From: Streptomyces celluloflavus
GTDB lineage: Bacteria > Actinomycetota > Actinomycetes > Streptomycetales > Streptomycetaceae
DNA length: 64,000 bases
Direction of reading: 5' to 3'
NCBI GenBank assembly: GCA_000720995.1
Contig: JOEL01000001.1
Span: 186,001 to 250,000, forward strand
The notes beneath the pieces are model-generated. The model saw nothing but the letters and a program-made list of their open reading frames with translations. It did no database searches and had not been told where the DNA came from. The translations under genes and the position numbers were made by a program. Shown here piece after piece: positions 17,242-26,761 of the stretch; position 1 is the stretch's first letter; the number at the start of each line of letters is the position of its first letter.

Positions 17242-20200
17242 CTAGCCGTCGGCGGACCGGTGGGTCACGCCCTGGGCGGGGATACCGCGCCAGCTCGTGC
17301 CCGGCATGAGGCGCTCGCCCTTCATGAGCAGCGACAGCGCGCCGAGCCGGACGCCCGCGCCGACCACGGCGTCGTAGAGCACGATCGCGCGGGTGCCGAC
17401 GCTCGCCCCGCTGTCGACGGTGACCTGCGACATTTTCATGACGCGGTCTTCGAACAGGTGCGTTTGCAACGATACGCCCGTGCCGATCGCGGCGTCGTCG
17501 CCGATTTCCACCAGGTCGAACTCGGTGAGATAGGTGGTGCCGATCCAGGTGCGCCGGCCGATGCGGGCGCCGAACCAGCGCAGCACCGCCGGCAGGAACG
17601 GGGTCCCGACCAGGGTGCCCGCCCCGGCCGGTACCGCGGCCGCCTCGTAGAGGCCGGTGACGAACTCGGTACGGCGTACGAACCAGCTCCACAGCGGTTC
17701 GACCCGCGGCCGGTAGGTCCCGACGACCGCGCGCTTGACCGCCGCGCAGTACGCGATCACCGCGAGCCCCGCACCCATCGCGAGCAGCGGCGATACGAGC
17801 ACCGGCACCAGCGGGTCCCGGGAGCGTGCCACGCCGGCCAGCGCCAGCAGATAGAGGTAGACGCCCATGCCCAGCACCGTCGCGGGCAGCGTGGCGCGGA
17901 AGAACTCGATGCCGAGGCGGTGCCGCACGGCCTTGCGGTTCGGGCGGAACGTCAGCTCCTCGGGGAACGAACCGCTGCTCTGGCGTACCGGCAGATGCAT
18001 CGCGGGCGACCCCAGCCACGAGGTGCCGTCCGGCGCACCGTGCCGCGGCGGTACCGTGCCCACCCCGACCAGGGACCCCGGCCCCATCCGGGTGCCGGCC
18101 GGTACGAACGCGGCGTTGCCGACGAACGCGCGCCGGCCCACCTCGGTGGGGCCGAACGCGACCCGGCCGGCCGCGAAGGTGGCGGCGCCGATGCTGGCCA
18201 TGTCCGCGACGAAGCTGCCGTCGTCGAGAGTGAGCAGATCCGGGTCGAGGTGCGCGGCGGTGGCGACTTCGGCGCCCCGGCCGACCCGCGCGCCGAGCAG
18301 CCGCAGCCACGGCACCGTATAGAGGGTGGCGTAGAGCGAGTTGGTGAAGGCCAGGCTGAACTCCAGCAGCTTGTCCGCCACCCACTTGCGCACGCCGAGC
18401 GAGGAACGCACCGGGTGCACACCGACCGGTACCTCGGACAGGACGAGACGCTTGCCGACGGCGACCACACAGCAGACGGTGAGCACGTACACCGGACCGG
18501 ACACCACGACGGCGGCGGCGCCCGCGAGCACGCCCCAGCCCCAGTAGCCCCACCACACCAGTGCGAGGCCCGGCAGGACCATCGCGACCACGGCGGCCTC
18601 CAGGAGCACCAGGCCGGACAGCGCGGCCGCGAGATGGCGTGGCCGCCACCCGTCCACGTGGCCGCGAGCACGCAGCATGGTCTCCATGGCGGGGGCGAGC
18701 GCATCGACCGGATACGGCGGCGAGCCGGCCCAGCGCGCTCCGGCGGTGACCACCTCGTCCTGCTCGACCACCGACTGTTCGCCGAGCCCGGCCCCGGCCC
18801 CCAACCGCGCACCGGGTTCGAGGACCGCGTTGGCCCCGACGCAGGCGCGCGGCCCGATCTCGATCGGGGCGACCGTCACCCAGCCGTCCGCCACCCGCCA
18901 CGGGCGCAGCGAAACGCCGTAGCCGACCGAGGCGTCGCCGCCGATGCGCAGCAGGGTCGGCAGGCTGACCATGCTCGTGGCGATCGTGGTGCGCGGCCCG
19001 ATGCGCGCGCCGAGCAGCCGCAGGTACGGCGCCATCATGGGGGACCCGGACAGCACCTGCAGCGGGCTGACGGCCAGCAGCAGGTTCAGCAGCCACAGCC
19101 GCAGGTACGTCCCGCCCCACAGCCGGTAGGAGCCCGGCCGGATCCCCGCCGCCAGCGGGCGCGCGAACACCACCGGCACGATCCAGCGCACGCCGAGGTA
19201 GCCGGCCAGCGCCGCGAGGACCGCCTGCACCGCGGTCAGCTCCGAGAACTGACCGCCGTGCCGGCCGTACACGAAGGCCAGCGGCAGCGTGGTCAGGAGC
19301 AGCCACAGATAGATCGCCCCGGCCTGCGCCGTCCCGGCGGCCGCGATCCGGCCGCCCCGGTGGCGGATCGGTTCCGGGCGGGGCGGCGCGGTCAGCCGCG
19401 GGGGACCCGCCGACGCGCCCAGCCGTGCCGCCAGGCCGCGTACGGTCGGGGCCGCGTAGAGATCACGCATCGTCGGGCTCGTGCCGATGTCCCGGCCGCG
19501 CAGCAGCGAGACGACCCGGGCCGCGAGCAGGGAGTGGCCGCCGAGCTCGGTGAAGAAGTCCGCCTCGGCCGACAGCGACGCGGGCTCGGCGCCGAGCACC
19601 TCCGCCCAGGCGTCCCGCAGCCGCGTCTCCAGCTCGCCGCGGGCGGCCACGACCCGGCCGCCGCCCACCAGACGGCGGCCCGTCGGGGCGGGCAGCCGGG
19701 TGCGGTCCGCCTTGCCACTGGGCATGGCCGGGAGCTCGGTGAGGATGTCCACGAAGGCCGGCACCATATAGGCGGGCAGCCTGCGTCGCAGATGCGTGTG
19801 CAGCCGGGTGACGAGAGCCTCGTCCCCGTCCGTACCGCCCGGTGTCCGCATCACATAGGCGGCCAGCTCGTTGCTGTCGCCGCCGTCGTCCGGTGCGGGC
19901 ACCAGCGCGGTGACCGCCTCGGCCACGTCGGGATCCTCCAGCAGCACGCTGTCGATCTCACCGAGATCGACCCGGTAGCCCCGGATCTTCACCTGGGCGT
20001 CGGTACGGCCCAGGAACTCGATCTCCCCGTCCGTGGTGATCCGGCCGAGGTCTCCGGTGCGGTAGAGCCGGCCGTCCCCGGGCGCGAGCGGATGCTCGAT
20101 GAACCGGTCGGCGGTCAGCTCCGGTCTGCCGATGTAGCCGCGGGCGACGCCGGGGCCGCCCACACAGATCTCGCCGACCGTGCTGTCGGGTACGCGTTGC

Positions 20201-21231
20201 CGCCGCTCGTCGAGGAGTACCACCGAGTAGGTCGGCAGCGGCCTGCCGATGGTCACGGGCCGCCCCGGCAGCAGCTCCGTCCAGGTCGCGGTGACGGTGG
20301 TCTCGGTCGGTCCGTAGGTGTTGAGCATCCGCCGTCCCGGCCTGCTCCACCGCTCGACGAGCTGACCGGGGCAGACCTCACCGCCGACCACGATGCCCCG
20401 GATCCGCGGCAGGTCCCGCGGAATCGTCTCCAGCAGCGTCGGTACGCAGTACAGCAGCGTGATCTCGCGGTCCTCCAGGAAATCGGCGAGCTCCGAACCG
20501 AGCCGCCCGGAATCGACCGTGCCCGCGACCACCGTGGCGCCGACCGACCACGTCGGCCAGATCTCCTCGATGGAGAAGTCGAAGGAGATCGTCATGCCCT
20601 GGTACACCCGGTCGTGCGGCCGCACGTCGTACACCCCGGGCACGATGTCGAGGAAGTTGCAGATGCTCGACTGGGTGATCTCCACACCCTTGGGCCGGCC
20701 GCTCGAACCCGAGGTGTACATGATGTACGCGATGGGGTCGTCGTCTCCCGGACCGTGCGCCACCGTGTCGGGACGCGGACGCGCGGTGGGTACGGAGGCG
20801 AGCTCCGGCGCGCACGAGTCGAGCTCGACCACCCGGCAGGGGAGCTCCGCCAGGCCCGGTGCGAGCGCGGCGGTGGTCAGCACCAGGTCGACGCCGGCGT
20901 CCCCCGCGATATAGGCGATACGGTCCGGGGGCGACGCCGGGTCCATCGGCACGAACGCCGCACCGGCCTTGCTCACCCCGAGCAACGACACATAGGTGTC
21001 CACCGAGCGCGGTAACAGAATCGCGACCCGTGCCCCGTGGCCGATGCCGAGACCGCGGAGGTGGTGGGCGAGCCGATTCGCGTGCGTGTCGAGTTCGGCG
21101 TACGTCAGCCGGTGGTGCCGGTATTCGAGTGCCGTCGCCGACGGATTGCGGTCACAGGCGGATTCGAAGACGAAATGCAGTCGCCTGCCCGCTCCTCCCG
21201 GAGGCAGTCCGTTCAGATGCTGTGCCACCAC
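17242..21231 (-). CDS. Pls/PosA-family membrane NRPS (homopoly(amino acid) synthetase-like)
   Basis: 1329 residues. The first ~510 are an adenylation domain (YTSGSSGRPKG, NTYGPTETT, YRTGDLG, KIRGYRVDLGEID, SGKADRTRL), then a PCP with ELGGHS (about 19535). The C-terminal ~720 residues alternate pairs of membrane helices with three tandem left-handed beta-helix-like domains (LLGARIG and LLGARVG begin two of them). This is the architecture of epsilon-poly-lysine synthetase, where the tandem domains join monomers into a free polymer; there is no condensation or thioesterase domain. Hand-aligned pocket residues are D-F-E-Y-V-G-T-V-T-K. The Glu at the third position fits a basic amino acid. The start is GTG with a weak ribosome-binding site. 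Family is confident, monomer is not. Confidence 0.88.
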   Translation of the reverse strand: MVAQHLNGLPPGGAGRRLHFVFESACDRNPSATALEYRHHRLTYAELDTHANRLAHHLRGLGIGHGARVAILLPRSVDTYVSLLGVSKAGAAFVPMDPASPPDRIAYIAGDAGVDLVLTTAALAPGLAELPCRVVELDSCAPELASVPTARPRPDTVAHGPGDDDPIAYIMYTSGSSGRPKGVEITQSSICNFLDIVPGVYDVRPHDRVYQGMTISFDFSIEEIWPTWSVGATVVAGTVDSGRLGSELADFLEDREITLLYCVPTLLETIPRDLPRIRGIVVGGEVCPGQLVERWSRPGRRMLNTYGPTETTVTATWTELLPGRPVTIGRPLPTYSVVLLDERRQRVPDSTVGEICVGGPGVARGYIGRPELTADRFIEHPLAPGDGRLYRTGDLGRITTDGEIEFLGRTDAQVKIRGYRVDLGEIDSVLLEDPDVAEAVTALVPAPDDGGDSNELAAYVMRTPGGTDGDEALVTRLHTHLRRRLPAYMVPAFVDILTELPAMPSGKADRTRLPAPTGRRLVGGGRVVAARGELETRLRDAWAEVLGAEPASLSAEADFFTELGGHSLLAARVVSLLRGRDIGTSPTMRDLYAAPTVRGLAARLGASAGPPRLTAPPRPEPIRHRGGRIAAAGTAQAGAIYLWLLLTTLPLAFVYGRHGGQFSELTAVQAVLAALAGYLGVRWIVPVVFARPLAAGIRPGSYRLWGGTYLRLWLLNLLLAVSPLQVLSGSPMMAPYLRLLGARIGPRTTIATSMVSLPTLLRIGGDASVGYGVSLRPWRVADGWVTVAPIEIGPRACVGANAVLEPGARLGAGAGLGEQSVVEQDEVVTAGARWAGSPPYPVDALAPAMETMLRARGHVDGWRPRHLAAALSGLVLLEAAVVAMVLPGLALVWWGYWGWGVLAGAAAVVVSGPVYVLTVCCVVAVGKRLVLSEVPVGVHPVRSSLGVRKWVADKLLEFSLAFTNSLYATLYTVPWLRLLGARVGRGAEVATAAHLDPDLLTLDDGSFVADMASIGAATFAAGRVAFGPTEVGRRAFVGNAAFVPAGTRMGPGSLVGVGTVPPRHGAPDGTSWLGSPAMHLPVRQSSGSFPEELTFRPNRKAVRHRLGIEFFRATLPATVLGMGVYLYLLALAGVARSRDPLVPVLVSPLLAMGAGLAVIAYCAAVKRAVVGTYRPRVEPLWSWFVRRTEFVTGLYEAAAVPAGAGTLVGTPFLPAVLRWFGARIGRRTWIGTTYLTEFDLVEIGDDAAIGTGVSLQTHLFEDRVMKMSQVTVDSGASVGTRAIVLYDAVVGAGVRLGALSLLMKGERLMPGTSWRGIPAQGVTHRSADG

Positions 21232-22019: not shown

Positions 22020-22437
22020 CCCACGGCATCGCTCCCGGACCAGGCGTCGACGGGGAGCGTCCGGCCGGGCAGGCGGCAGGGCCCCTGGCCCACGCCGCCG
22101 CCCGGCCCGCCGAGGCCCACCGGATGCGGGCCGGCGTCGGCCGTCCGCCCGCATCCCCAGCGTTCGCACCCCGACCTCCGGCGCCGACGAGGCTGCCGGG
22201 GGCGGAACGTGGAAGGGCGTGTGTCGTCCACGGCACCGTGACCGCCGCGGCCCTCGGCCGTCGGCTCCGCGCAGGCCCCGCCTGACGGAGCCCGCCGGCC
22301 GCAGCATGCAGTGCGCGGATCAGACGGTCGTTCTCCGGGGCGCACGCCGCGTGCAGATCCCGCTGGATGTGCGGTCCGAGGTCGAGCACGGCCGCGCTCC
22401 CCTCGCCGATGCCGGAGATGCCACCACGAGGGAGACC
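22020..22437 (-). pseudogene. Possible gene fragment or untranslated region after the MFS gene
   Basis: 418 bases without a confident gene. On the minus strand, directly after the MFS stop and in the same frame, there is a protein-like stretch (VLDLGPHIQRDL ... CAPENDRLIRALHAA, about 22290-22390) reminiscent of the last helix of sulfotransferase-like proteins. It degrades into Arg/Pro-rich sequence and has no good start. It may be an eroded gene or chance. Confidence 0.25.
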
Positions 22438-23664
22438 TCAGCCGACGGGGACGGGGCTTGTCGTCGCCGGAAGTGTCCGGGTGCGCAGTGCCCACCGGGT
22501 GAGCGGCCGGGTGGCGAGGCCGCAGAGCGCGAGGACGACGCCCAGCACTACCCAGCCCGGCCTGCCCCATTGGAGGCAGAGAGCGGTGAGCACGACCGGT
22601 GACGCCGCGCGTACCACGCCATCGGCCAGGTTGAAGGCTCCCTGGTACTGGCCCTGGGCGTGTTCCGGGGCCAGTACGAAGCTGATTTCGAATGCCCCTG
22701 CGGCCAGGCCGAGTTCACCCGATGACAGCAGGAGTACGCCGACGAGCAGCAGGGTCGCGGCAACGGGGGCGGAAACCCCTGCGGCGAGGGCGAGCACGAT
22801 ACAGCCGGCGAGGGACAGAAACCCTGCTCCGCGGAGAGCGGTGGAAGCGGGCAACGGGCCCCTCACCCACCGGGTCGCCCTGACCTGGAACAGCACGACC
22901 ACGGCCGTATTCACCACCAGCAGTGCGGAGAGCCACCATCGGGGCGCCTCGGTGTGCGACACCAGCCAGAGCGGCAGGACCAGGGACACCACGTCGTACT
23001 GGAACGCGATGACCCCGCACAGCAGCGACAGGGCGAGGTACGGTCCGTCCCGCATGGCCTCCATGCGCCGCGCGCCCGGCGGGCGTGGCACCGGCTTCAC
23101 GGACGGGATCTTGAGCAGCAGTCCCGCCGCCGCGAGGAAGCTCAGTCCGTTCGCCAGGATCAGCAGGGTGTAGCCCGCCGTCGAGTCCAGCTGGAGCGCG
23201 ACGCCGGCCGCGGCGGCGCCGATGCCCATCCCGAGGTTGGTCACCGCCCGGAGATGGCTGCGGACGCGGGTACGTTCGCCGGGCTCGCTGATCCGGGCGA
23301 TCAGGGCGCCGCCGACCGCCTGGGCGCCGCGTTGGCCGATGGCGGCGACGGTGACCAGCACGAGGAAGACGGCGAAGGAGTGTGTCATCGGGAACAGGAA
23401 CATCGCCGTCGCCTGGACAGCTTGGGTGGCGACGTACAGTCCCCGCGGCCCGACGCGATCGGCCACAGCGCCGAGGGGGAGGCCCGACAGGATGCCGGCG
23501 ACCGTCGCGATGGCGAGGCCGGTGCCCACGCCGGACACACTCAGCCCGACGACGCGGGTGAAGAACAGCATGCTTCCGGCGAGATAGAGCCCGCTGCCGA
23601 CGGTGGTGACGAAACTGGCGATCGTCAGGAAACGTACCGAGCCACGAAATACATCGGCCGTCAT
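22438..23664 (-). CDS. MFS transporter (putative RiPP exporter)
   Basis: 408 residues from the ATG at 23664. About 12 hydrophobic segments and the MFS loop motif GLPLGAVADRVGPRG between helices 2 and 3. It begins FRGSVRFLTIASFVTTVGSGLYLAGSMLFF, typical of drug/proton antiporters. It is the last gene of a minus-strand series of precursor peptide, JmjC oxygenase, glycosyltransferase and transporter, about 95 bases after the glycosyltransferase gene. By position it is the likely exporter or immunity pump for that product. Substrate is inferred only. Confidence 0.87.
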   Translation of the reverse strand: MTADVFRGSVRFLTIASFVTTVGSGLYLAGSMLFFTRVVGLSVSGVGTGLAIATVAGILSGLPLGAVADRVGPRGLYVATQAVQATAMFLFPMTHSFAVFLVLVTVAAIGQRGAQAVGGALIARISEPGERTRVRSHLRAVTNLGMGIGAAAAGVALQLDSTAGYTLLILANGLSFLAAAGLLLKIPSVKPVPRPPGARRMEAMRDGPYLALSLLCGVIAFQYDVVSLVLPLWLVSHTEAPRWWLSALLVVNTAVVVLFQVRATRWVRGPLPASTALRGAGFLSLAGCIVLALAAGVSAPVAATLLLVGVLLLSSGELGLAAGAFEISFVLAPEHAQGQYQGAFNLADGVVRAASPVVLTALCLQWGRPGWVVLGVVLALCGLATRPLTRWALRTRTLPATTSPVPVG

Positions 23665-23760
23665 ATGCGCCTCTGGGGGGCGCCGTTGCTCTCCTGGTGG
23701 CACACGTGGCTTTCCTTCGAATCGGGTTCGGATGCCTGCTTTTCCGGGATGGGTTCCGGG

Positions 23761-24834
23761 TCAGTGACGGCGAGCCAGTTGCTCGCGCAGGGCCGACAGA
23801 CACTCGGTCCGGTATGCCGCCAGTCCCGGTGCCGCCGCCCGTTTCCTGCGGTTGAATTCGCCGGTGTTCACCCAGGTGACGATCAGGTCCGCCAGGGAGG
23901 GAATGCCGCCGTACCGCGCCGTCATCCCTTCGGTATGACCGCTCAGTGGATAGAAGGCGGGCACGAGCGAGGGAAGGCCGAACCGGACCATGTCGTTGAT
24001 GTTGCCCGTGACACAGGTCTGGCCGCGCGTCTCGACGATGCCGTTACGCGTGAGGTGCTCGGAGACCGGAAGAATGAGGAAGTCAGCCTCTGCCAGGGTC
24101 CGGTCGAACTCCTCCTGCGGGACGTAACCCGGGTGGTCTCGCAGTTCGACCGAGGGAGCGACCGCCTTCCTCGCGGCTTCCACGGCAGCGCTGGTGTCCT
24201 CGGTGGCGTGCTCTCCCAGAAATTCGACGCGCAGTCGCTTCGTCAGCCGGGGGGAGGCGATTTCCAGTGCGGACAGAACCTCGGCGTGGTCCCTGCCGGA
24301 ATACATTCTCCCCGGAATACAGCACCGCACCTCGTCCCTCACGAACTCCGTGGGCGGATGCTGCGGGTAGGCGATGTTGACGGCGCGGCTCCGCAGGGGG
24401 TCGCCGGTCCTCCTGAGCCGGAGATCCGGGAGCAGGACACCCGCCGCGCCGTCGAGAACGAGCTTCGCGATGGCGGCGCTCGGCCGGTTGCCGTCCGACG
24501 AGGTGAACGTGTTGAGGTTGTGCACCAGGCAGTGCCAGGCGGGTGTCAGCACGCTCGTATCGGAGAGCAGGCCGCACAGGGAATCGACCGGGGTGATGAT
24601 GAACAGGTGGTCCTGCGAGGCGATCGAGGACGTGTACTTCTCCAGGAATTCCGCGTACGGCAGACCCGGGGGACACACCTTCCACTCGACTTCCGCGGAT
24701 TCGGCGGTCTGAGAGGATTCGGCACAGAACGCATTGGTGTAGACGGTGGGGCTCGCCCCGATATCGACGGCTTGCCGTATGAGACTGTCGAGGACCTCGC
24801 TGTGTGCGCTGAGCTCGATCAGGCCGATCTTCAT
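23761..24834 (-). CDS. GT-B-like glycosyltransferase in RiPP-like locus
   Basis: 357 residues. The overall pattern is a GT-B fold: an N-terminal Rossmann half (MKIGLIELSAHSEVLDSLIRQA ...), then a C-terminal half with VEFLGEH, HPGYVPQEEFDRTLAEADFLILPV and VTGNINDMVRFGLPSLVPAFYPLSGHTEG, the usual nucleotide-sugar-binding region. I cannot place it in a named CAZy family. Composition is less GC-rich than the flanking core genes. It sits between the JmjC oxygenase and the MFS exporter. A reasonable proposal is that it glycosylates a hydroxylated residue of the 46-residue peptide. That is inference. Confidence 0.7.
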   Translation of the reverse strand: MKIGLIELSAHSEVLDSLIRQAVDIGASPTVYTNAFCAESSQTAESAEVEWKVCPPGLPYAEFLEKYTSSIASQDHLFIITPVDSLCGLLSDTSVLTPAWHCLVHNLNTFTSSDGNRPSAAIAKLVLDGAAGVLLPDLRLRRTGDPLRSRAVNIAYPQHPPTEFVRDEVRCCIPGRMYSGRDHAEVLSALEIASPRLTKRLRVEFLGEHATEDTSAAVEAARKAVAPSVELRDHPGYVPQEEFDRTLAEADFLILPVSEHLTRNGIVETRGQTCVTGNINDMVRFGLPSLVPAFYPLSGHTEGMTARYGGIPSLADLIVTWVNTGEFNRRKRAAAPGLAAYRTECLSALREQLARRH

Positions 24835-24969
24835 CGAGTTGTCTCCGTCAGTGCTGAGCGCCCTGCGCGGGCCCGCACCATCGCGAGGAACTGACCCCGT
24901 GGTGCAGGCCCGGCGGGCATGGACCGCCTGCCCGTCATGGAGCGGGCCGGGCCGGATTCCCGGTGGTGC

Positions 24970-26157
24970 TCACGCCGGCGGAGGATTCTCCTCCAGCAGG
25001 ATTCCCTCCTCGACCAGCAGCCGGAGCAGTGGGGCGATGTCTTCGGCCAGGTCGAATTCGGGGGCCCAGTCAGTGGCTTCCGCGAGGGTGAACGACGTGC
25101 GGCGGAAGAGATTGTCGATGAGCTCCGCGGGAGCGCCGTCGAGCGTGATCTTCCGCGCGCCGAACTGGATATGGTGCTGTTCGGCCTCGGCATCGTAATC
25201 AACCTTGACAGGGTTGAATTGCGCTTGCCGCAGACGTGAGCCGCCGTTCGTGGAGAGGGGATGGAACCCGGACTGGCTCGGGAGGCTGACCTCCCGGTGA
25301 CGGCTGTCCTGAGTTGTCAGATGATGGGCGAGGTACGCCTTCACCAACTGCTCGTCGTCGGCCCGTGCGGCGAGCCTGCCCATCAGTCCGCGGATGTGGT
25401 CGGCGAGCTGGGCCGTATCACCTCCGACGACGGGCGGGAGATTGCGCCGCCACTCCTCCTCGTCCATCAGCTCGTCCGCGAGCCACTTCAGCCAGTAGAC
25501 GCCGGTGCGGCACGTCACTCCCAGCGTCAGGTGCAAAGAGGGTTCGTCGCCGGCCACCGCGTAATGCCAGTGGCCCCGTGGAATGTAGAGCACGTCCCCC
25601 GGATGGAGTTCGGTCTCGATGTACGGGGGTCCCTTGGGTTCGCCTGTGTCGGCGGAGACGTTGTTGTATTTGTCGAGCGGGTATTTGTACGTCTCCTCGG
25701 AGACGACCCAGCGCTTCGTCCCCTCGATCTGCAGGATGAAGACCTCATGGTCGTCGTGGTGCTGGTCGAACCCCTGCTGTTCGGGCCAGGAGCAGTACAT
25801 GTTGACCTGGCTCCGGTGGCCGGTCGCACGCTCGATCCCCGTTGCCAGTTCGGCGATGGCGGGCAGCCGCGCCTGCAACTGGTTGATGATGAGGGTGTAG
25901 CCGTCCTGGCAGTGCTTGATCCACTCTTCGGGAGTCTCGGGCTCGCCGGAGATCTTTCTGCCTATTGCCGCCAGGCGTATCTCTTCGCCGAACCGGAGAC
26001 GGTGGAAATTGAGAAGGTGGTTGAGCTGATCCCATGAGAAGAGCGGACGGAAACGGTCCCGGTCCTGCCCGCGTAGGACGACGCCCCGGTTTGTCCAGTT
26101 CTCGCGAAGGAATTGATCGAGAGGCATTGGGTCAAGCAGGGATTCGAGATCGAACAC
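24970..26157 (-). CDS. JmjC/cupin-4 2-oxoglutarate Fe(II) oxygenase in RiPP-like locus
   Basis: About 395 residues of the YcfD/ROXA-type JmjC family: 2-oxoglutarate and Fe(II)-dependent protein or peptide hydroxylases. The iron facial triad is HHDD (HxD) in FDQHHDDHEVFILQIEGTKRW plus the distal His in YIPRGHWHYAV. PGDVLYIPRG is the usual cupin turn. The C-terminal ~100 residues (FDLAEDIAPLLRLLVEEGILLEE) look like the winged-helix domain of this family. GTG 26157 has AGGA five bases upstream; GTG 26169 is the alternative start. It lies 83 bases after a 46-residue peptide gene, with a hairpin between. The natural substrate is inferred to be that peptide, since stand-alone members act on ribosomal proteins. 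Confidence 0.85.
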   Translation of the reverse strand: MFDLESLLDPMPLDQFLRENWTNRGVVLRGQDRDRFRPLFSWDQLNHLLNFHRLRFGEEIRLAAIGRKISGEPETPEEWIKHCQDGYTLIINQLQARLPAIAELATGIERATGHRSQVNMYCSWPEQQGFDQHHDDHEVFILQIEGTKRWVVSEETYKYPLDKYNNVSADTGEPKGPPYIETELHPGDVLYIPRGHWHYAVAGDEPSLHLTLGVTCRTGVYWLKWLADELMDEEEWRRNLPPVVGGDTAQLADHIRGLMGRLAARADDEQLVKAYLAHHLTTQDSRHREVSLPSQSGFHPLSTNGGSRLRQAQFNPVKVDYDAEAEQHHIQFGARKITLDGAPAELIDNLFRRTSFTLAEATDWAPEFDLAEDIAPLLRLLVEEGILLEENPPPA

Positions 26158-26184
26158 GCCATTCCTCACACGTTTAAGGGGAGT

Positions 26185-26211
26185 GCCCGGTGGCTCCAGG
26201 AGCCACCGGGC
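26185..26211 (-). terminator. Attenuator-like hairpin between peptide gene and JmjC gene
   Basis: An inverted repeat with stem GCCCGGTGGCT and its complement around a 5-base loop lies 30-56 bases after the peptide stop. A partial terminator here would let the peptide be made in excess of its enzymes, as is common in RiPP operons. Confidence 0.6.
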
Positions 26212-26240
26212 GGTTCAGGACAGTGACTTGCCCCCTGTCC

Positions 26241-26381
26241 TTACACGTCCTTCTGGTCGACCTCAAGGTTCGGCACGCTCTTGACCTGGGCCGTCTTCAC
26301 CGTCTCCACGGAGAATCCGATCCGCTTCGGCAGACGGGCCGAGTGGGACTCGCTCTTGGGCGCTGCGGGAATCTTGGCCAT
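26241..26381 (-). CDS. 46-residue precursor-like peptide (putative RiPP)
   Basis: A short gene: ATG at 26381 with GAGGAG eight bases upstream, TAA at 26241. The product starts MAKIPAAPK, has a basic middle (ARLPKRIGF), and ends in a Val/Lys/acid-rich tail (NLEVDQKDV). It has no cysteine, tryptophan or tyrosine, so lanthionine, sactionine or aryl cross-links are unlikely. Candidate modification sites are Lys, Asp, Asn, His, Arg, Pro, Val, Ser and Thr. No transmembrane segment or signal peptide. It is first in a same-strand series with JmjC oxygenase, glycosyltransferase and MFS pump. I do not recognise the family. That it is translated is well supported by the Shine-Dalgarno site; that it is modified is inference. 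Confidence 0.75.
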   Translation of the reverse strand: MAKIPAAPKSESHSARLPKRIGFSVETVKTAQVKSVPNLEVDQKDV

Positions 26382-26395
26382 TGATGACTCCTCGA

Positions 26396-26416
26396 CTAGG
26401 GAACTTGCCCTTTCAT
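26396..26416 (-). CDS. Six-codon leader ORF (MKGQVP)
   Basis: ATG at 26416 with an excellent AAGGAG five bases upstream, then five sense codons and TAG at 26396-26398. The stop lies 14 bases before the ATG of the 46-residue peptide. It may be a translational leader controlling the peptide gene, or the remnant of an older start. Confidence 0.35.
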   Translation of the reverse strand: MKGQVP

Positions 26417-26547
26417 TCCTACTCCTTGATGTCCCTGGCTGCGGAAAACGTGTGATAGATCATCGGGCGATGTATTGAGCCATAGTTGCCGGAGTGCTTG
26501 CCAAGCGTTGGCGGCTGTGCATGGTGAGGGGCAGGTCGCCGGTCGTT

Positions 26548-26761
26548 TCAGGACGTGGTGAATGGCTGCCTCAAGTGATGGATGGTGCGGGTGAGTTCGA
26601 GGAGTCCCTGGTGGAGATCGGTGCGTATCTCGTAGCGGAGGCACAGACGCGTGAACTGGTGCAGCCGGGTCAAGGTGCGTTCGACGACCCAGCGGGCCTT
26701 GTCCTGGGCCGGAGCCGTGCGGGGCGCCGCGGCGCGCGGTCTTCACCCGGATTTCTCTCAA
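26548..26761 (-). pseudogene. IS5-family transposase remnant, frameshifted
   Basis: The C-terminal end of an IS5-type DDE transposase. One frame reads ARRGAPHGSGPG and after a frameshift another reads ARWVVERTLTRLHQF ... YEIRTDLHQGLLELTRT, matching the family's WVVERTxxWLHxFRRLxVRYE block with the catalytic Glu. It ends with TGA at 26548-26550. Only about 70 codons remain; no intact element or inverted repeats were found. It marks past transposition at the edge of the RiPP-like locus. Confidence 0.72.

Follow-up and report, generated by a model that had tools for sequence, protein, structure and literature searches.

Gene content and extent of the cassette

The window, the 64,000-nucleotide stretch of Streptomyces celluloflavus DNA analysed here, carries a compact cassette in which a 46-codon peptide gene is followed on the minus strand by genes for a JmjC oxygenase, a glycosyltransferase (GT)-like orphan protein and an MFS transporter. 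The four open reading frames (ORFs) lie in the order, on the one strand and at the positions that the initial annotation had given them, and the cassette comprises the following features.

22420..26557, no strand assigned: conserved cassette, its extent taken from blastn blocks against S. kronopolitis
26241..26381, minus strand: putative RiPP precursor gene, 46 aa
26185..26211, minus strand: conserved hairpin with a 12-bp stem and a 3-nt loop, between the peptide stop and the jmjC start
24970..26169, minus strand: JmjC (PF08007) Fe(II)/2-oxoglutarate oxygenase
23761..24834, minus strand: orphan GT-B-like protein, 357 aa
22438..23703, minus strand: MFS transporter, presumed exporter

Blastn comparison with the other cassettes showed that DNA similarity with the window breaks off at 22420-22436 at one end, and at the opposite end somewhere between 26392 and 26629. 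The G+C content was 0.62-0.69 across the peptide, jmjC and GT-like genes, compared with 0.76-0.78 in the right flank. A value of 0.65 was also recorded in the left flank at 21-22 kb. No tRNA genes were found by a tRNA scan and no promoters by a promoter scan. As had been reported earlier, neither a leader-cleaving protease nor a classical RiPP maturase is encoded among the four genes.

The peptide gene is constrained in its C-terminal part

The peptide gene had been described as a well-initiated small gene of no known family whose product lacks Cys, Trp and Tyr. This description holds: GAGGAG stands 6 nt before the ATG, the ORF translation contains none of the three residues, and no Pfam or NCBIfam model matched above cut-off, the best match below it being Pfam BioW (E 0.076). 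The initial annotation had also made its reading depend on conservation of the 46-codon frame, and the frame proved to be kept, with the marks of coding sequence, in four other genomes. In the alignment of the five sequences, residues 1-17 contained nine amino-acid-variable columns and one synonymous-only column, and residues 18-46 contained a single amino-acid-variable column (S/N35) and six synonymous-only columns; variable bases numbered 5, 6 and 11 at codon positions 1, 2 and 3, respectively. Because residues 18-46 change almost only synonymously while residues 1-17 vary freely, the ORF is a real gene, constrained in its C-terminal part.

RiPP precursors usually combine a conserved leader with a variable core. 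The five orthologues vary N-terminally and not C-terminally, which is the reverse of that pattern and counts against a RiPP reading. This reversal gives no fixed core border, and the invariant C-terminal part may as well be leader as core, or comprise the two. The same near-invariance would suit a peptide that acts as a scaffold or carrier for small-molecule assembly, or as the source of an excised modified residue, with the GT-like and MFS proteins acting on a small product; the presence of an MFS protein rather than a peptide-exporting ABC transporter, and the lack of a dedicated protease among the four genes, point the same way. The cassette contains no ligase of the types known from PEARL and amino-group-carrier systems, and there is no sign of a residue added or removed, so we regard a scaffold role as unlikely.

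The hairpin was predicted in 5/5 cassette sequences, with a different loop in one of them (CTG/ATC) and a G-T wobble in two. It had no Rfam match and was not called by a simple terminator scan, which requires a T run. Hairpins 3' of a precursor gene often set precursor excess, and this one is a possible attenuator or RNA processing site. With the small ORF first in the cassette and the conserved hairpin next to it, the ORF might instead be a regulatory leader or a small regulator of the downstream genes rather than a substrate. Synonymous-only changes indicate that amino acids are conserved and not the RNA alone, and upstream of numerous further jmjC genes lie peptides of other kinds (below), some containing repeats, as expected of substrates. 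We therefore give a regulatory role very little credence.

The JmjC protein and its C-terminal domain

The JmjC protein matched PF08007 with an E value of 5.5e-27. GTG at 26157, preceded by GTGAGGA, is the better start, and residue numbers are counted from it. Across 40 aligned JmjC homologues, D135, H198 and K148 occurred in 40/40 rows and H133 in 39/40; we take the HxD...H residues (H133, D135 and H198) to be the iron ligands and K148 to be the 2-oxoglutarate-binding Lys. The earlier identification of a JmjC oxygenase with visible iron ligands was thus borne out by both the family match and the conservation of these residues.

The C-terminal domain was analysed by aligning a profile of the 40 JmjC proteins with a PqqD profile of 19 sequences. 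The last 100 residues of the JmjC family matched PqqD with an HHalign probability of 92.6% (E 4.5e-7, a single comparison), against 1.0% for the N-terminal and 0.4% for the middle control regions of the same family. Rows from type B loci (defined below) gave 81.6% on their own. The five rows of the window clade alone gave a weak match (6.1% probability, p 0.006), and Pfam PqqD was not among the matches of the window protein at E<=1. Part of the resemblance that we call RRE-like may stem from a general likeness among winged helices. A quick 40-row tree puts the window clade (5 rows, support 100) on a long branch, grouped with the F and E clades (support 98) and apart from the B and C clades, with a program warning that long branches come together at this grouping.

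The GT-like orphan and the MFS transporter

The third gene had been annotated as a GT-B glycosyltransferase, a label less secure than those of the other genes. No Pfam, NCBIfam or PHROG model matched its product, and a PDB search returned nothing below E 0.29. The alignment of GT-like proteins scored highest, out of five profiles, against a GT4 profile built from seven proteins of the source genome (20.9, the others scoring 12.0 to 18.1). This match places residues 172-324 colinear with the GT-B C-terminal domain and is weak (hhalign probability 0.7%, p 0.08); scores as high were reached by 2/150 column shuffles, and the reversed alignment scored 14.8. An AF2 model based on five similar rows had a pLDDT of 41.8 and no usable fold. 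The third protein is thus probably a GT-B glycosyltransferase, an identity suggested by the colinear GT4 match and still unproven. The fourth protein matched PF07690 (E 4.5e-24) and is presumed to work in the direction of export.

The unproven GT family of the third protein fits an alternative in which JmjC does act on the peptide, by an oxidation other than simple hydroxylation (macrocyclisation or cross-linking, for instance), and no glycosyltransferase is encoded by the third gene. Against it stand the weak colinear GT4 match and the activity of the characterised JmjC RiPP enzymes BipG and BpmG, which hydroxylate, as far as the sources on them go; we judge this course quite improbable.

Conservation and distribution of the cassette

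The initial annotation had suggested a search for co-occurring JmjC, GT and peptide homologues, and these were found together and in the same order in five genomes. All four genes were open without internal stops in 5/5 of them, namely the window and four other Streptomyces. Three of the cassettes came from a JmjC search of genome contigs, in S. kronopolitis (L036), S. nigrescens HEK616 (L037) and S. pinistramenti (L038), and the fifth genome (G215, L082) from a genome search; a further hit (G427, L083) is the same record as L038, with 100% identity over 16,865 bases. Identity to the window across the other four cassettes was 80-91% for the peptide, 87-91% for JmjC, 79-87% for the GT-like protein and 85-92% for the MFS protein.

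Overall the cassette is sporadic. The GT-like protein (E<=1e-5) was detected in 3/392 Streptomyces genomes, and the JmjC orthologue (E<=1e-45) and the full-length peptide were detected in the same three. A GT-like profile found only the copy of the source genome in 296 Actinomycetota genomes, and tblastn found no GT-like protein in plasmids. An initial peptide search of 198 relatives likewise returned its own copy only, the orthologues surfacing later through the JmjC and profile searches. At E<=0.01 the peptide profile matched 10/392 Streptomyces genomes: the three cassette genomes, G468 (2.2e-21) and six with weak matches. In G468 (L124) the cassette has decayed; the two parts of the peptide lie in different frames, matches to JmjC stop at about residue 80, there is no real match to the GT-like gene and the MFS gene is still present. 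The six weak matches (E 4e-4 to 0.0097) were taken as chance, and two of them (G274 and G395) had no JmjC match nearby in a permissive tblastn search. The peptide match in G274 covered 30 residues at 53% (E 1.8e-5 in that small search), and G395 gave a match to the GT query (E 0.001) that ran through a stop.

This distribution bears on the possibility that the JmjC protein is a ribosomal-protein oxygenase (ROX) like NO66, MINA and YcfD, with the peptide, GT-like and MFS genes as unrelated neighbours. NO66 (2.8e-26) and MINA (2.1e-14) were indeed its closest solved structures in a PDB search. An orthologue present in only 3/392 Streptomyces is too sporadic for a ribosome-modifying housekeeping enzyme, and we rejected the housekeeping reading on this ground; in addition, the four genes travel together and the JmjC homologues of the nearest clade adjoin repeat peptides. 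A ROX with chance neighbours accordingly retains only a slim chance in our assessment.

Peptide genes beside other JmjC homologues

We surveyed 40 regions around JmjC homologues, a non-random set made up mainly of the best-scoring matches from the same genus, with two regions from the source genome itself and two from the same order. A short peptide gene lay directly upstream of jmjC in 38/40 loci, a raw, uncontrolled count in which directly upstream stands for a distance of some 100 bases or less from the probable start of jmjC, some of the starts being estimates. The upstream peptides belonged to types B (20 loci), F (10), C (4), D (2) and E (2); L073 and L077 had no upstream peptide gene. 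Fifteen of the type B loci were grouped by unsupervised all-against-all comparison and the remainder were classified by eye. The peptides of L064, L065 and L067 were seen only on reading all frames without requiring a ribosome site. The jmjC gene of L065 is itself cut short.

Type B peptides end in a SDGGGTGRSDGND-like sequence, type F peptides carry EGPADGGAAGTPGVHDGGADGG, or near variants of it, repeated two to five times, and one type E locus has two tandem peptides. Among JmjC loci outside the order, 4/5 had DGGADG-type repeat peptides, and L017 starts at a contig end. None of the scanned upstream peptides matched Pfam or NCBIfam above cut-off; the best matches below it were Pfam NPBW for type B (E 0.023) and, for type E, the putative bacteriocin YxzE (E 0.087). 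Where type B loci were inspected, an aldo/keto reductase (confirmed by Pfam in 3/3 tested) and an aminoglycoside-kinase-like protein usually come next; against Pfam APH, four of the kinase-like proteins gave one match above cut-off, one below and two absent. No clear motif links the window peptide to the other five types. Asp alone among the residues recurs in the C-terminal parts, as cut by hand, of all six peptide types.

Proposed pathway

The RiPP-like reading is strengthened because 38/40 JmjC homologues have an upstream peptide gene and because the JmjC family has an RRE-like C-terminal domain. It also draws on the occurrence of JmjC, GT-like protein and full-length peptide in the same three Streptomyces genomes, on the conserved hairpin behind the precursor gene, and on the published BipG/BpmG hydroxylases and PF08007-RRE fusions (below). 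We consider it somewhat probable that the cassette is a small, sporadic RiPP-type pathway in which the JmjC protein oxidises the C-terminal part of the peptide, with possible glycosylation by the GT-like protein and export by the MFS protein. The 46-aa peptide would serve as the precursor and would be bound by the JmjC protein through its RRE-like domain. The enzyme would then oxidise, most likely by hydroxylation, at least one side chain in the C-terminal segment PKRIGFSVETVKTAQVK[S/N]VPNLEVDQKDV. The orphan GT-B-like protein may subsequently add a sugar, the MFS protein would export the product, and proteolysis, if any, would fall to a host protease. We infer the enzyme-substrate relation, the modified site, the glycosylation and the export. 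D42 or D45 might be the first candidate hydroxylation sites, a weak suggestion made because Asp is the sole residue type common to the six C-terminal parts.

The RiPP-like reading of the initial annotation survives in that the frame is conserved, its C-terminal part is constrained and it stands beside the same three partners in five genomes; the peptide hydroxylation and the sugar are carried forward as proposals from sequence. Several observations count against the best reading: the cassette has no protease or classical maturase, the RRE match is weak in the window's five rows, the GT identity is weak with a low-pLDDT model, the window JmjC protein sits on a long branch apart from the B and C clades, and the survey loci are mostly top matches. 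The cassette is real, conserved and compact, and is a good RiPP candidate.

A broader and more doubtful proposal, which we put forward tentatively, is that actinomycete PF08007 JmjC proteins are, taken as a family, RRE-fused peptide maturases whose dedicated precursors fall into six or more unrelated kinds (single-core, tandem or multi-repeat), the window cassette being a hydroxylate-glycosylate-export branch with an orphan GT-B enzyme. If the proposed pathway is correct, it would be a RiPP pathway of only four genes, with a JmjC oxygenase as the sole recognised maturase and an orphan second enzyme. Of more importance than the cassette itself may be the JmjC-peptide pairing at large, which supplies ready candidates for the substrates of JmjC enzymes whose role is unknown and would open their natural function to direct testing.

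Comparison with known systems

Glycocins of the sublancin type combine a ribosomal peptide with a glycosyltransferase. The window peptide differs from them in having no Cys for S-glycosylation, and the third protein matches no known family. The window JmjC protein belongs to the same JmjC sequence family as NO66, MINA and YcfD; it differs from these in being a sporadic gene within a peptide-GT-MFS cassette, with no indication of a ribosomal substrate. The proposed route would also resemble the collagen lysyl hydroxylase/galactosyltransferase pair, as far as the source describes it, in which 2-oxoglutarate-dependent hydroxylation is followed by a sugar on the hydroxyl, an analogy of logic only.

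The nearest published systems are the biphenomycin-type RiPP pathways, in which BipG and BpmG are described as JmjC ornithine hydroxylases (PMC12707348, PMC12257519). In the parts of these reports that bear on the clusters, a JmjC enzyme acts on a ribosomal precursor, Streptomyces are among the hosts and the biphenomycin cluster has an MFS gene, as in the window. Unlike in the window, JmjC there is a tailoring step beside an MNIO, a B12 radical SAM enzyme, an arginase and a TldD protease, the precursor is unrelated, and the gene list given names no glycosyltransferase to set beside the GT-like gene. None of the biphenomycin hallmarks (MNIO, B12 radical SAM, arginase and an FHAFRF-type precursor) occurs in the cassette's four genes or in the peptide sequence. 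Fusions of RRE-like folds to PF08007, and bacterial homologues found in RiPP-like contexts, are described in an update of RRE-Finder (PMC12710340); the Pfam family, the type of context and, weakly for the window's own clade, the RRE-like domain agree with the window, and in the relevant part of that paper neither a precursor nor a glycosyltransferase or product is given for them. A further report (PMC10783134) deals, in the portion concerned, with prochlorosin clusters that have other enzymes.

Among the matches listed in the full-text literature, in which subscription journals are thinly covered, we found no description of a JmjC-peptide-glycosyltransferase pathway. This is consistent with the earlier statement that no described class has such a gene set, with the qualification that JmjC hydroxylation in a RiPP pathway, that of biphenomycin, is already published. 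As JmjC enzymes are thus known in RiPP biosynthesis, the cassette would be an extension of that chemistry rather than its first instance.

Surroundings of the cassette and a decayed copy

The upstream side of the peptide gene adjoins a transposase-like fragment, and DNA similarity between the window and the S. nigrescens HEK616 locus with the same four-gene cassette (L037) extends to 26629, within this fragment. A large NRPS-like ORF, which by eye also contains a fused hexapeptide-repeat acyltransferase and membrane parts, lies outside the cassette and is not a member gene.

26548-26720, minus strand, fragment resembling an IS transposase C-terminus (judged by eye)
17242-21231, minus strand, large ORF reading as an NRPS-like adenylation/carrier protein (by eye)

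A decayed copy of the cassette was observed in Streptomyces genome G468 (L124:8540-10018). There, the peptide parts lie in separate frames, the jmjC match stops near residue 80 and the MFS gene is retained; the GT-like gene had no real match in this copy.

Peptide genes upstream of jmjC in other loci

Type B peptide genes, with a SDGGGTGRSDGND-like C-terminal end, stand immediately upstream of jmjC; in the loci inspected, genes for an aldo/keto reductase and for a kinase-like (APH-like) protein usually come next. None of the type B peptides scanned gave a family match above the cut-off. Asp/Asn-rich peptides were observed upstream of jmjC in L080 and L081.

Peptide genes upstream of jmjC, by locus
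Type B, own genome: L042 (contig C23), L052 (contig C21)
Type B, other loci: L043-L050, L053, L055-L057, L059, L060, L065, L068, L071, L074
Type C, immediately upstream: L072, L076, L078, L079
Type D, immediately upstream: L061, L066
Asp/Asn-rich, two genes in tandem: L080
Asp/Asn-rich, doubled DNDPxDPV unit: L081
Repeat peptides: L051, L054, L058, L062-L064, L067, L069, L070, L075
Repeat peptides, outside Streptomycetales: L019, L028, L031, L034

The repeat peptides carry 2-5 copies of EGPADGGAAGTPGVHDGGADGG, or related DGGADG runs, and several actinomycete families have them upstream of jmjC. They resemble multi-core precursors.
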